DNA from: Curtobacterium sp. MCLR17_032
GTDB taxonomy: Bacteria > Actinomycetota > Actinomycetes > Actinomycetales > Microbacteriaceae
Reading direction: 5' to 3'
Assembly: GCF_003234795.2 (NCBI RefSeq)
Contig: NZ_CP126268.1
Location: 2,418,001 to 2,482,000, forward strand
DNA: 64,000 nt
Position numbers and translations under genes: made by a program. The notes beneath the pieces were generated by a model that was not told where the DNA came from, made no database searches, and saw only the letters and a list, made by a program, of their open reading frames with translations. This document shows positions 4,914 through 53,659 of the stretch, piece after piece. The number at the start of each line of letters is the position of its first letter. Position 1 is the stretch's first letter.

Positions 4914-5186
4914 ATGTCCGAAGCCACCCGCACCGTCACCGTCGCCAGCGCCTCCGGCCTGCACGCACGGCCCGCGTCGCTGTTCGTCCAGACCGTCACC
5001 GCGTCCGGCCACCAGGTCACCATCGCCAAGGGCGAGAAGTCGGCCAACGCCGGCAGCATCCTCGGCCTCCTCGGCCTCGGCGTCGAGAACGGCGACCAGG
5101 TCACGCTGACCGTGTCCGGCGACGACGCCGAGACCACCGCGGACAGCCTGGTCGACTTCCTGCAGACGGACCACGACGCGGCCTGA
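4914..5186 (+). CDS. ptsH: Phosphocarrier protein HPr
   Basis: Small cytosolic PTS phosphocarrier between enzyme I and EIIA. The protein is 90 residues (MSEATRTVTVASASGLHARP...) with phosphorylated His17 in SGLHARPAS. Ser48 in NAGSILGLLGLG aligns with regulatory Ser46 of Gram-positive HPr; I see no HPr kinase in the window. An upstream in-frame ATG at 4881 would add 11 residues without similarity. The ATG at 4914 is preferred because CAGGAG lies just upstream and the product then matches normal HPr length. It follows the DeoR gene after 87 bp and ends before a strong palindromic terminator. Confidence 0.96.
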   Translation: MSEATRTVTVASASGLHARPASLFVQTVTASGHQVTIAKGEKSANAGSILGLLGLGVENGDQVTLTVSGDDAETTADSLVDFLQTDHDAA

Positions 5187-5213: not shown

Positions 5214-5261
5214 GACGGACGGGAGGCCCGGTACCAGCTGGTACCGGGCCTCCCGTCCGTC
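5214..5261 (+). terminator. Perfect 48-bp palindromic terminator
   Basis: Two exact 24-bp arms, GACGGACGGGAGGCCCGGTA + CCAG and their reverse complement, abut without a loop, 27 bp after the ptsH stop. No U-tract follows. It belongs to the repeated GACGGACGGGAGGC arm family also seen at 11227, 46433 and 53566. Confidence 0.8.
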
Positions 5262-11226: not shown

Positions 11227-11275
11227 GACGGACGGGAGGCTCCCCCACGGACCAGTGGGGAGCCTCCCGTCCGTC
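11227..11275 (+). terminator. Palindromic terminator after the MHS transporter
   Basis: Arms GACGGACGGGAGGCTCCCC and the reverse complement surround a short loop around 11246-11256. The outer 14 bases are identical to the arm at 5214, while the inner arm differs. Confidence 0.75.
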
Positions 11276-13170: not shown

Positions 13171-13185
13171 GGCCCTCCCGCAACA

Positions 13186-13243
13186 CGCAACGTGGGCGGC
13201 GCCACGCGACGGAGTACCGCTGCGAGGAACCGCCCACGTTGCG
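13186..13243. terminator. Bidirectional terminator between ABC exporter and gabD
   Basis: CGCAACGTGGGCGG (13186-13199) and CCGCCCACGTTGCG (13230-13243) are exact 14-bp inverted arms with a 30-bp spacer, between two convergent genes. Confidence 0.65.
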
Positions 13244-13256
13244 TTTCGCGGCGGTG

Positions 13257-36422: not shown

Positions 36423-36615
36423 CCGCGTCGGTAGGCGCCAGGCCGGTCCTCGGGCACCCCGCCGCTCAGCGTGCGCCCGCGCGGGTCGGTGGGTGCCGGT
36501 CCGGGGGGACGCCGGTCCGGGGGGCGCGCCGGTCTGCGGCCGCAGCCGTGTGCGGAGGCCCGGCCGTGTGGTCCGACTCAACGCGGCGAATCGCGACGCG
36601 CCCGGCCGACATCGC

Positions 36616-36649
36616 GTGGTCGTGAGCACCCCCGAACATCGGATAGACT
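36616..36649 (+). promoter_or_regulatory. Promoter of tRNA-Pro
   Basis: TAGACT at 36644-36649 is the -10 box, about 35 bp before the tRNA. GTGGTCGTGAGCACCC at 36616-36631 covers the -35 region and recurs exactly upstream of tRNA-Ser. Confidence 0.6.
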
Positions 36650-36684
36650 TCTGGGGTTGCTCCGGGAACGGAGTGATCACACCG

Positions 36685-36759
<75 letters not shown>

Positions 36760-36764
36760 AGCCA

Positions 36765-36794
36765 CGGCCCTGGTTCCACTCGGAACCAGGGCCG
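36765..36794 (+). terminator. Terminator of tRNA-Pro
   Basis: CGGCCCTGGTTCC and GGAACCAGGGCCG form a perfect 13-bp stem with a four-base loop, followed by TTCTGCATTT. Confidence 0.85.
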
Positions 36795-36865
36795 TTCTGC
36801 ATTTCCGCGGGCTCTCCTTGTTTCCGGATCAGCCGTCGTCCCGCCCGGCGGCCGAACGGGTCGCC

Positions 36866-37230
36866 GCACAACGAGAACCGGTCCGCACCAGGGCCTCCCC
36901 CGGTGCGAATCGGTTCCGGTAGTGCATCTCCACCCCGCACCCGCACCGGCACGGTGCAAGCCAGGTCGGCGTGCCGCTGGCCGGGTCGACGCACAACAAG
37001 AACCGGTCTGCACCAGGGCTTCCCGCGGCGCAAACCGGTTCCGGTAGTGCCTGTCCAGGCCGAACCGGCGCAGGGCGAGCCAGGCCGGCGTGCCGAGCAG
37101 CCGGCAACCGGCTGGGTCGCCGCACAACGAGAACCGGTCCGCGCCAGGGTTTCCCGCGGCGCGAACCGGTTCCGGTAGTGCTTGTCCATGCCGAACCGGC
37201 GCAGCGCGAGCCAGGCTGCGTGCCGGCCCG
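36866..37230. repeat. Three-unit tandem array of hairpin-forming repeats
   Basis: Units begin at 36866, 36991 and 37122 (periods 125 and 131 bp). Each starts with a 60-bp core (36866-36925, 36991-37050, 37122-37181) from GCACAAC to GTAGTGC. The core folds on itself: GAACCGGT-C-CGCACC pairs with GGTGCG-A-ATCGGTTC around an AGGGCCTCCC-type loop. Differences between cores keep the pairing: C-G to T-A at one pair and A-T to G-C at another. The spacer between cores is also related (CCGAACCGGCGCAG...GCGAGCCAGGC). The array is gene-free and lies between the tRNA-Pro terminator and a monooxygenase gene. Confidence 0.8.
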
Positions 37231-37257
37231 CGCCCGCCAGCGGCGCCGGCCGCTCCC

Positions 37258-38298
37258 CTACGCCACCGCGACGCCCGGGCGGACCAGACGCCCCTCGGCG
37301 TGCAGCCCGGCGACGACCTCGAGCGCCTGGTGCCGGTAGCGCGCCTGTGCGGCGCCCGGAGCGACGATGACACCGTCCGCCCCGGTCGACTCGACCAGGT
37401 CGTTGATCTTCGCTGCGACCTGCTCACGCGTGCCGTACGCCTGACGCTCGGTGCGGGCGGCGATGAACCGACGCTCGCGGTCCGAGAACTGGTAGGCGCG
37501 CGCCTCGTCCATGGACACCGGCTCGGGCTTCGTGCCCTGACGCATCCGGATGAAGGAGATCATGCCCGGGGCGCTCTGCTCCTCGACCACGGCGGGGTCC
37601 TCGTCGGTGACGACCTGCACGCCGATCAGTGCGAGGGGCTCCGACCGGAAGCGGGACGGCCGGAACGACTGGTGGTAGAGCGCCAGTGCCGCTTCGGTGT
37701 TGTCCGAGGCGAAGTGGTGCGCGAACGCGAAGGCGATGCCGAGTGCACCGGCGACCTGCGCGCTGTACCCGGAGGAACCGAGCAGCCAGAACTCGGGCAC
37801 GTCGCCGTAGCCGGGGACGGCGCGGATCCGGGAGAGCGGGTTCGACTCCTCCATGCCGGTGAAGAACCCGATCAGGTCGGCGAGCTGCTGCGGGAAGTCG
37901 TCGACGTCCAGGCGGTCGGTGCGACGCAGCGCCATCGCGGTCGCCCCGTCCGTACCGGGTGCGCGACCGATGCCGAGGTCCACGCGGTCGCCGTACAGGG
38001 CGCGGAGGGTGCCGAACTGCTCGGCGATGACGAGGGGTGCGTGGTTCGGCAGCATCACACCACCGGATCCGATGCGGATGGTGGAGGTCGCGGCTCCGAC
38101 GGCGCTCAGCAGCACGGCAGGTGCGGACGACGTGATGCCCGGCATGCCGTGGTGCTCGGCGACCCAGATCCGTTCGTAGCCGAGCTGCTCGGCTCGGACG
38201 GCCATGTCGATCGAGCCCTGCAGGGCTTCGGTGTTCGACTGGCCGTACTCGCGCGTGGCGAGGTCGAGGACGGAAAGGTGCAGGGGTGCGTCACTCAT
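37258..38298 (-). CDS. LLM class flavin-dependent oxidoreductase (luciferase-like monooxygenase)
   Basis: Predicted FMN/F420-type monooxygenase with the bacterial luciferase barrel, 346 residues. The N-terminal [40 protein letters not shown] and [20 protein letters not shown] are typical of the MsnO8/YhbW-like group. [19 protein letters not shown] is the mid-protein phosphate-binding segment. The substrate is unknown. ATG at 38298 gives [10 protein letters not shown]. It is the downstream neighbour of the tdk operon on the same strand, separated by a 21-bp repeat array. Confidence 0.9.
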
Positions 38299-38340: not shown

Positions 38341-38424
38341 CAGTCCGGGACGGAGCGTCAGCAGTCCGGGACGGAGCGTCAGCAGTCCGGGACGGAGCGT
38401 CAGCAGTCCGGGACGGCGCGTCAG
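38341..38424. repeat. 21-bp tandem repeat, four units, ending on the tdk stop codon
   Basis: CAGTCCGGGACGGAGCGTCAG is repeated at 38341, 38362 and 38383 exactly, with one mismatch at 38404. The tdk stop codon (38421-38423) is the TCA of the last unit's GCGTCAG. Confidence 0.9.
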
Positions 38425-39056
38425 CGCTCGGCGGCGCCGTCCAACCGCCCACCGGACTCGGTGAGGTAGCAGTTGGCGCAGAGCGACTCGTACTCGACGT
38501 CCGTGCCGTCGATGGCGACCTGTGACCCGTCGAAGACGAACTGCCCGTGGATCTTCCGCGCGTTGAACACCGCCTTGCGTCCGCAGCGGCAGATCGTCTT
38601 GAGCTCTTCCAGGGAGTGCGCGACCTCGAGCAACCGCCGGCTGCCGGGGAACGCCTCGGTGCGGAAGTCGGTGCGGATGCCGTACGCCAGGACCGGGATC
38701 TGGTCGAGGACGGCGATCCGCAGCAGGTCGTCGACCTGCCGGGGGGTGAGGAACTGGGCCTCGTCGACGAGCACGCAGCTGACCGGTCGGACCATGCCGT
38801 CCAGGCGCGCGGACTCCGGGTCGGTGGCACCGGCCTCGGCGACGGCGGCACGGACGTCCACGTCGGCGGGCAGCACCACGTCGACGGTCCGGGTCACACC
38901 GAGCCGCGAGACGATCTCACGGTCGCCCTTCGTGTCGACGGCGGGCTTCGCGAGCAGGACCCGCTGACCGCGCTCCTCGTAGTTGTAGGCGGCCTGCAGG
39001 AGTCCGGTGCTCTTGCCGCTGTTCATCGCGCCGAAGCGGAAGTAGAGCTTCGCCAC
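38421..39056 (-). CDS. tdk: Thymidine kinase
   Basis: Salvage enzyme phosphorylating thymidine. The 211-residue type II kinase has P-loop [16 protein letters not shown] near the N-terminus, [15 protein letters not shown] as Walker B with the catalytic glutamate, and zinc cysteines in TICRCGRKA and SLCANCYL. The start is GTG at 39056, sharing one base with the stop of the response regulator gene (TAGTG), so tdk is the last gene of a two-component operon, an unusual setting. Its end coincides with a 21-bp repeat array. Confidence 0.95.
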
Positions 39057-46432: not shown

Positions 46433-46488
46433 CCACGACGGACGGGAGGCCCGCTACCAGCTGGTAGCGGGCCTCCCGTCCGTCGTGG
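46433..46488. terminator. Perfect 56-bp palindrome between convergent genes
   Basis: The 28-bp arm beginning CCACGACGGACGGGAGGCCC is followed directly by its exact reverse complement, with no loop. It serves the wall-protein gene and, from the other side, asd. It shares its outer arm with the palindrome at 5214. Confidence 0.8.
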
Positions 46489-52573: not shown

Positions 52574-52744
52574 GCGAGCACGCCCCAGAAACGAAGAAGA
52601 CTCCTCACGCACGGAACCAACACAGCCCCGGTGCCCATCGCGAGCACGCCCCAGAAACGAAGAAGACTCCTCACGCACGGAACCAACACAGCCCCGGTGC
52701 CCATCGCGAGCACGCCCCAGAAACGAAGAAGACTCCTCACGCAC
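52574..52744. repeat. 66-bp tandem repeat derived from the SRP RNA 3' end
   Basis: Copies start at 52574, 52640 and 52706. The first two are 66 bp and virtually identical; the third is its first 39 bp and runs into the SRP RNA gene. Leftward, each copy begins GTGCGTGAGGAGTC, the 3' strand of the SRP RNA terminal helix, followed by TTCTTCGTTTCT, a T-rich tail. The array fills most of the gap between ffs and dnaX. Confidence 0.9.
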
Positions 52745-53533: not shown

Positions 53534-53565
53534 CGGAACGGAACCCTTGACGGACCGGACCGTTT

Positions 53566-53614
53566 GACGGACGGGAGGCCCACCACCGGTCCGGTGGTGG
53601 GCCTCCCGTCCGTC
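53566..53614. terminator. Near-perfect palindromic terminator between convergent genes
   Basis: Two exact 24-bp arms (GACGGACGGGAGGCCCACCA + CCGG) with a single-base centre. It separates the NAD(P)-binding protein gene from ackA and shares the outer 16 bp of the arm with 5214 and 46433. Confidence 0.8.
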
Positions 53615-53659
53615 AGGGGGTCGCGCCGCGCACGACGCCGGCCGACGGGACGACGCTGG

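Follow-up and report, generated by a model that had tools for sequence, protein, structure and literature searches.

Between a proline tRNA gene of Curtobacterium sp. MCLR17_032 and the 3' end of an oppositely oriented gene, three similar hairpins stand in a row. The locus raises the question of what these hairpins are, how they came to be repeated here and what keeps their arms paired. The window, i.e. the whole stretch of DNA analyzed, comprises 64,000 nucleotides (positions 2418001-2482000 of the single 3.71-Mb host contig). The evidence presented below indicates that the array consists of three tandem copies of a dispersed, genus-specific palindrome, which probably serves at the 3' ends of genes as an intrinsic terminator working in both directions.

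The array in the window and its dispersed family

Table 1. Features of the window discussed in the text (window coordinates).
Feature	Position	Strand	Remarks
tRNA-Pro(cgg)	36685..36759	+	tRNA / Rfam match
tRNA-Pro's own terminator-like hairpin	36764..36795	+	14-bp perfect stem; distinct from array
Tandem array	36857..37227	.	TRF: 2.9 copies, period ~131 bp
Unit 1, 60-nt palindrome	36866..36925	.	22/28 Watson-Crick pairs, 6 non-Watson-Crick; - strand U-rich tail TTCTCGTTGT
Unit 1 with 17-nt flanks	36849..36942	.	~94 nt; family-wide flank consensus, matched only partly by unit 1
Unit 2, 60-nt palindrome	36991..37050	.	21/28 Watson-Crick pairs, 7 non-Watson-Crick; - strand U-rich tail TTCTTGTTGT
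Unit 2 with 17-nt flanks	36974..37067	.	family flank consensus
Unit 3, 60-nt palindrome	37122..37181	.	22/28 Watson-Crick pairs, 6 non-Watson-Crick; closest unit to LLM stop codon, 76 nt
Unit 3 with 17-nt flanks	37105..37198	.	family flank consensus
Luciferase-like monooxygenase-type (LLM) gene (presumed family)	37258..38298	-	3' end faces array
GACGGGAGGC...GCCTCCCGTC palindromes	5214-5261, 11227-11275, 46433-46488, 53565-53615		between/after genes; core variable yet paired
CGCAACGTGGGCGG...CCGCCCACGTTGCG palindrome	13183-13246		convergent gap

Both a repeat search, which places successive units 125 and 131 bp apart, and TRF recovered the three copies. The hairpin array described in an earlier, sequence-only reading of this DNA is thus real, and every pair change named there is present. 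The stem of about 15 bp given in that reading is too short: the hairpin has a 28-bp stem and a 4-nt loop, with most mirrored positions forming Watson-Crick pairs (Table 1), while the 63,940 60-mers of the window average 8.2 of 28. Beyond the array just three window 60-mers reach 21 pairs, and they lie within other long palindromes (46431, 5208 and 13185). In units 1, 2 and 3, respectively, stem columns 19/42 read C-G, T-A and C-G, columns 16/45 read G.T, G-C and G-C, and columns 22/39 read A-T, A.C and G-C; the reported paired changes therefore stand at all three positions, save that unit 2 is mispaired at the last of them.

Open frames overlap the array, which is unsurprising in DNA of this G+C content, and a codon-usage gene caller accepted no gene over it. 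When window positions 36600-37300 were compared with Rfam at the gathering score, the tRNA alone passed and the hairpins matched no family, so that a known RNA family was rejected. For the three units, RNA folding z scores run from -3.6 to -5.4 on the + strand and, with lower predicted folding energy, from -5.5 to -6.4 on the - strand. The transition-type mismatches of the three copies are 10 A.C and one G.T on the + strand, i.e. mostly G.U on the - strand; a terminator scan of the window flagged two of the three copies (units 1 and 2), on the - strand only; and the + strand tail TTCCGGTAGT contains less T than the - strand tails. The G.U mismatches and the lower energy on the - strand fit use of the array by the gene whose 3' end faces it, which we take to be of the luciferase-like monooxygenase type, but this asymmetry is a hint only, because the three copies are not independent. 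It is likely that the LLM gene is the user of the - strand hairpins.

The LLM gene was matched in 39 of the 40 genus genomes (own counted). The tRNA-Pro gene adjoins it in 10 of the 30 loci examined (own counted), some of them in relatives without the array, which leaves the sequence-only proposal that the hairpins were inserted here on account of the tRNA without support. The covariance model described below matches 7 of 29 relatives' loci at this site, several others bear different palindromes as judged by eye, and in three relatives (genomes G019, G024 and G034) one related copy sits between the tRNA and the LLM gene. Our array is a local tandem amplification of the unit that is single in these three genomes, and the earlier claim that it was not simply a duplication cannot be upheld.

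A tRNA-linked island was likewise rejected: the same two genes are neighbors in array-less relatives, and a tRNA accompanies an element in only two of the 31 own element regions, the window and L039, with no other tRNA within 0.8 kb of an element in a scan of the 30 regions outside the window. The L039 element (4972-5031 of that locus, own 147571-147630) is a near-perfect family member, whose right neighbor, 87 nt away, is the 3' end of a tRNA-Phe belonging to a tRNA-Glu/Asp/Phe cluster. Two other repeats occur in the window, namely a 21-bp sequence (CAGTCCGGGACGGAGCGTCAG) present in four near-perfect copies between two co-directed genes (38341-38425), and a 66-bp unit in 2.6 copies with 100% matches, likely recent (52574-52744).

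A spaced-pattern search of the own genome returned 34 forward and 30 reverse matches, compared with 3 and 2 when the same pattern was written in reverse order. Thirty of the matches measure exactly 60 nt and were aligned without gaps, those of other lengths being left out. Searched at E<=1 with the covariance model built from these 30 copies, the own genome yielded 110 strand-matches, which comprise 54 places matched on both strands; two further weak single-strand matches (2372446 and 1479442) were not included in the placement counts. The aligned 60-mers begin with GCACAAC and end with GT(T/A/G)GTGC, and these heptamers are near-invariant and symmetric (GCACAAC/GTTGTGC), though their conservation, like part of the U count given below, is built in, because the ends defined the family.

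The family consensus extends beyond the hairpin: a 17-nt motif flanks the 60-mer on both sides, bringing the whole to about 94 nt. In 198 flanks the motif reads the same outward on either side, roughly GNN(G/T)CCGNNNSGCRCC, with G at position 1 in 84%, C at position 6 in 94%, G at position 12 in 78% and C at position 15 in 83%. Pairing between the two flanks is close to that predicted from column frequencies (0.88 vs 0.88 at position 6, 0.59 vs 0.52 at position 5), so the flank looks like a sequence motif rather than an extra stem; mutual information within flanks is high at several column pairs of these related copies, and yielded no clear pairing. The incomplete copy at 657977 and the misaligned one at 1773762 were left out of the flank, strand-bias, tail and U-column analyses. 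The outward motif CCGNNNSGCRCC (e.g. L045, L049) and the 5' stem arm CCGGCTCGAACC are similar, which gives the impression of an element built from four alternating copies of one motif.

The dispersed 60-nt palindrome is restricted to Curtobacterium in the scans made. The covariance model matches all 40 sampled Curtobacterium genomes (own counted), while among 150 genomes of the family Microbacteriaceae strong matches are confined to the three of the same genus. In eight of the remaining 147, weak strand-matches occur, one or two per genome, and by eye the weak matches from other genera are single hairpins, several with U-rich tails. An exact-pattern scan of 84,980 species genomes matched 109 stretches; the 80 of these that were listed all come from Curtobacterium or 'Microbacteriaceae bacterium PS02333'. 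The pattern occurs in none of the viral contigs scanned, and a phage origin was accordingly rejected. A Y1 (RAYT-type) transposase was found in none of the 40 genus genomes, the control being positive in 5 of 14 genomes, which rejects a RAYT-driven REP element; together with the Rfam result, this bears out the sequence-only statement that no known transposon explains the array, as far as transposases of the Y1 type are concerned. Along the own chromosome the 32 sites are evenly spaced (KS p=0.97), and therefore show no origin or terminus bias. Five other own loci contain tandem arrays of 3-4 hairpins each, spaced by about 140-290 bp (74140-74717, 546944-547603, 1409360-1410051, 1533126-1533493 and 1773312-1773688). 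Pairing is poor in some of them (74140-74717, 1773312-1773688), and such arrays may be decaying or serving another purpose.

Location at gene 3' ends and the U-rich arm

Genes around the elements were called with a small custom codon-usage script instead of annotation, to which tRNAs are invisible. On this basis, 28 of the 54 own places are convergent, 24 tandem and 2 divergent, and none lies inside a called gene (overlap >20 nt). The element at 147571 was scored tandem by this protein-only caller; it faces the 3' end of tRNA-Phe and is therefore convergent. At the level of sites (657977 left out), 19 of 32 are convergent, vs 26 of 161 nearby element-free gaps (p=1.2e-6), and 1 of 32 is divergent, vs 51 of 161 (p=2.3e-4). 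The own elements and those of relatives, with the 80 of 109 stretches listed among them, yield 161 deduplicated elements with gene context, 113 of them convergent, 43 tandem, 4 divergent and 1 inside a gene; nine more had no gene context. At 47 single-element convergent sites, the element follows the stop codon at a median distance of 61.5 nt.

This arrangement suggests a terminator working in both directions. From either side, RNA polymerase would transcribe the A-rich lower arm first, a GC-rich hairpin would then form in the transcript, and the polymerase would be released at the complementary U-rich arm (UUUCUGUUGUGC-like) transcribed next; the - strand copies of the array would end the transcript of the LLM gene. 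As in a terminator, a stable GC-rich hairpin lies directly downstream of stop codons and is followed by a U-rich tail on each strand, although the scan flagged one strand only in the window. The arm 3' of the GC-rich stem lacks an uninterrupted U run. Counted over the five tail columns not prescribed by the seed pattern, T averages 2.85 among the 30 seed copies, 1.93 among the 22 remaining, less typical own copies and 2.99 among 47 relatives' elements, with a background of 13% T in intergenic DNA. The ten-base tail has a mean of 5.8 U, a figure that is partly built in, because up to five of the T counted were prescribed by the search patterns. A weak U tract does not disqualify the element, because sections of the TERMITe study of Streptomyces terminators (PMC12207403) describe very stable, covarying hairpins with 3-4 U of 10.

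A very stable hairpin directly past stop codons would also suit a role in shielding mRNA from exonucleases after termination elsewhere. Such a role does not call for the U-rich and mirroring A-rich arms that are conserved here, and we regard it as very unlikely.

Conservation in place and the origin of paired changes

The positions of the elements are conserved between species. By flanking sequence, 17 of 18 elements sampled in G019 (15 loci) and all five sampled in G024 and G034 lie at own-element sites, as do 5 of 14 loci in G023, a more distant genome; these counts may favor shared sites, because the relatives' elements sampled were the best-scoring ones listed, with per-genome positions partly covered.

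Pairing is maintained both between unlinked copies and between species. Among the 30 own copies, both sides vary in 14 of the 28 stem pairs, and paired cells make up 92.7%, vs 86.5% in shuffled alignments and 33-43% in slid controls. Of five covariation measures, four exceeded every one of 500 shuffles, while 28 shuffles reached the fifth, that of further pair types. Comparison of orthologous stems (21 comparisons at 12 own sites) revealed 27 two-sided changes that preserve Watson-Crick pairing, as against 3 that fail to, along with 41 changes on one side; if the sides changed independently, about 1.4 complementary double changes would be expected, on the assumption that one third of random double changes are complementary. 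At site 889869, where ten species have exact 60-mers (the 61-nt copy of G018 being left out of the ten-row alignment), two-sided changes affect 12 of the 28 pairs, and the covariation score, 0.329, is higher than in any of 500 shuffles (mean 0.182) or any slid control. As the stems change two-sidedly at orthologous sites, the position is conserved while the pairing is maintained. The search for further copies that the sequence-only reading had proposed thus turned out in its favor: covariance-model copies occur in relatives, and their differences preserve pairing. Selection for the hairpin is the likely agent that keeps the paired changes.

The inner stem sequence that varies and yet stays paired also bears on the possibility that the palindrome is a DNA signal, i.e. 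a cruciform or a site for a dimeric protein such as a chromosome-organising factor. Near-invariant end heptamers, a flank that behaves as a sequence motif and a symmetry that holds regardless of the direction of transcription would all fit such a signal; the drifting core, the strong tie to gene 3' ends, with only 2 of 54 places divergent, and the even spread of the sites would not, and we find this explanation highly improbable.

A plain RNA terminator predicts a preference for G.U and a U-richer tail on the sense strand, and neither was observed at tandem sites. At 19 such sites, the transcript strand shows no preference for G.U over A.C (7 vs 8 sites, 4 ties), and sense tails are no U-richer than antisense ones (6 vs 14 with 23 ties among 43 elements, p=0.14; the 11 exact-pattern elements, which could hardly differ, supplied 10 ties). 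Strictly, a bidirectional element need not show a sense-strand preference where only one gene ends, but the absence of such a preference weakens the case, and the conserved 17-nt flank beyond the hairpin is superfluous in the textbook model of a terminator. The poorly paired arrays, and an orthologous site at which G024 lacks a long palindrome, likewise count against a terminator.

The lack of sense-strand bias at tandem sites suggests that correction of one arm by the other at the DNA level may contribute. In its extreme form, this explanation holds that template switching from one arm to the other, known as quasipalindrome correction, produces the paired changes without any need for selection on RNA. 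Passages of PMC8794818 describe the process in RNA hairpins, with loop inversion as a mark of it. One clear loop inversion was found: the copy at 1179663 in G019 is identical to the own copy at 58 of 60 positions as the reverse complement, vs 54 in direct orientation, while G034 has the own orientation. This is the single clear case in 21 comparisons, the two-sided changes are unclustered (4 adjacent vs 4.2 expected), and mutation alone leaves the position at gene ends unexplained. We therefore consider template switching unlikely as the whole explanation, while template-switch repair between arms perhaps helps to maintain the paired changes of a terminator hairpin.

Exchange of palindromes between species and relation to known systems

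Individual sites differ across species in presence, absence and replacement of the element. At 1686210 the 60-mer family is present in the own genome, G034, G035 and G023, whereas G019, G024 and G001 bear a different palindrome with AACACCGGTGTT arms and G018 has a third kind; the convergent gene pair is absent in G006 and G009. The L147 site shows the reverse case, with the 60-mer family in G019 and a AACACCGGTGTT-type hairpin in the own genome. This family, with ACACCGGTGTT arms in G019:C1:1925015-1925074 and other genomes of the genus, is patchily distributed, being present in 17 of the 40 (own counted); at 1686210 it stands in three species where others have the 60-mer, and among the matches listed it spans exactly 60 nt in nearly all copies.

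The 889869 site was obtained from 28 of 30 genomes, with the 60-mer family in 11, another hairpin in 9 (counting the weaker matches L327, L336 and L339, of 32-39 bits) and none above threshold in 6, while 2 genomes were unreadable. Among the six element-less genomes, two are not convergent and three have gaps of 4-16 bp; in G024 there is no long palindrome and the gap is 81 bp shorter than the own one. Five of the eight unshared G023 loci were queried in the own genome, and the 60-mer family is present in none: two have other long palindromes, two lack any that long, and in the fifth a gene has been inserted. For a second family, GACGGGAGGC...GCCTCCCGTC, an exact pattern matched 161 copies in the own genome, 40 in another genome of the genus and none in 78 sampled genomes of other genera. 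The third type found in the window, CGCAACGTGGGCGG...CCGCCCACGTTGCG, is also present at L186, where G023 bears the 60-mer. One gene-end site can therefore hold different palindrome families in different species.

Such patchy occupancy, together with the exchange of families at one site and the shorter, element-free gap of G024 at 889869, would be expected of a selfish or once-mobile palindromic repeat (REP-, ERIC- or MITE-like) that survives mostly where insertion is harmless, between convergent genes, with termination incidental. The fixed length of 60 nt, the common ends and 17-nt flanks at unrelated sites, and the tandem arrays at several sites point in the same direction. This origin is nonetheless improbable in view of the missing Y1 transposase (the type searched for), the location of nearly all sampled G019, G024 and G034 elements (a best-scoring sample) at own-element sites, the co-evolution of stems in place and the absence of viral matches. 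As a tentative possibility, Curtobacterium may possess palindromic terminator cassettes that are interchangeable: several genus-level families, unrelated to each other, whose outer arms stay constant while their paired cores drift, would swap at the same gene-end site between species, spread by a non-RAYT route and be kept near-perfect by DNA-level arm correction.

Repeated extragenic palindromes are a known kind of element, of which the Curtobacterium 60-mer family is a variant not found in the literature covered; none of the publications listed in the literature searches deals with Curtobacterium palindromes. Stem-loop repeat families have been described in parts of PMC2267715 and PMC12306157, and in the main text of the latter Curtobacterium and Microbacteriaceae are absent. 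The 60-mer copies and their orthologous sites form a natural data set for termination in high-GC actinobacteria with weak U tracts, and equally for the choice between RNA selection and DNA template switching as the source of paired hairpin changes. They suggest that terminators can be gained, lost and swapped as units, and, if bidirectional, the elements would offer ready-made insulators for actinobacterial genetics.

ERIC elements are intergenic palindromes of about 127 bp, genus- or family-wide and of obscure spread. By description, the 60-mer resembles them as a genus-wide intergenic palindrome and is set apart by its length. REP, GTAG and CGTC repeats are characterized in sections of PMC3733652 as extragenic palindromes located mostly between convergent or co-directed genes, with several families in some genomes; REPs are 20-40 bp long and tagged on one side by GTAG or CGTC, and CGTC repeats are apparently without a dedicated transposase. 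The 60-mer shares with them the repeated extragenic palindrome and the convergent or tandem placement, and differs in its 60-nt length, symmetric ends, lack of the GTAG/CGTC tag and lack of a Y1 transposase.

Terminators are usually unrelated in sequence. In another actinobacterium, Mycobacterium tuberculosis, the TRIT motif of the RNIE paper is reportedly a repeated, conserved terminator-like motif, to which the 60-mer can be likened by description. The TRIT motif is named in PMC3526491, and clusters of hairpins as terminators are discussed in passages of PMC8355165. Unlike Streptomyces terminators, in which A tracts are virtually absent according to sections of PMC12207403, the 60-mer has an A-rich arm. 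Uptake signals of Neisseria and Pasteurellaceae, as outlined in parts of PMC1852404, form repeated inverted pairs that serve as terminators and are enriched tail-to-tail. The 60-mer is likewise a repeated inverted sequence at converging gene ends, while its half-site (<=1 mismatch) is confined within the window to the three hairpins, on which ground a DNA uptake signal, for which numerous single half-sites would be expected, genes included, was rejected. In build, the 60-mer resembles the bidirectional terminators treated by TransTermHP in the same source, which consist of an A-rich side, a GC hairpin and a U-rich side: the 60-mer has the same GC-rich hairpin with A-rich and U-rich sides, placed between convergent genes, and departs from them in that dozens of its sites share one sequence, an exact length of 60 nt and 17-nt flanks.
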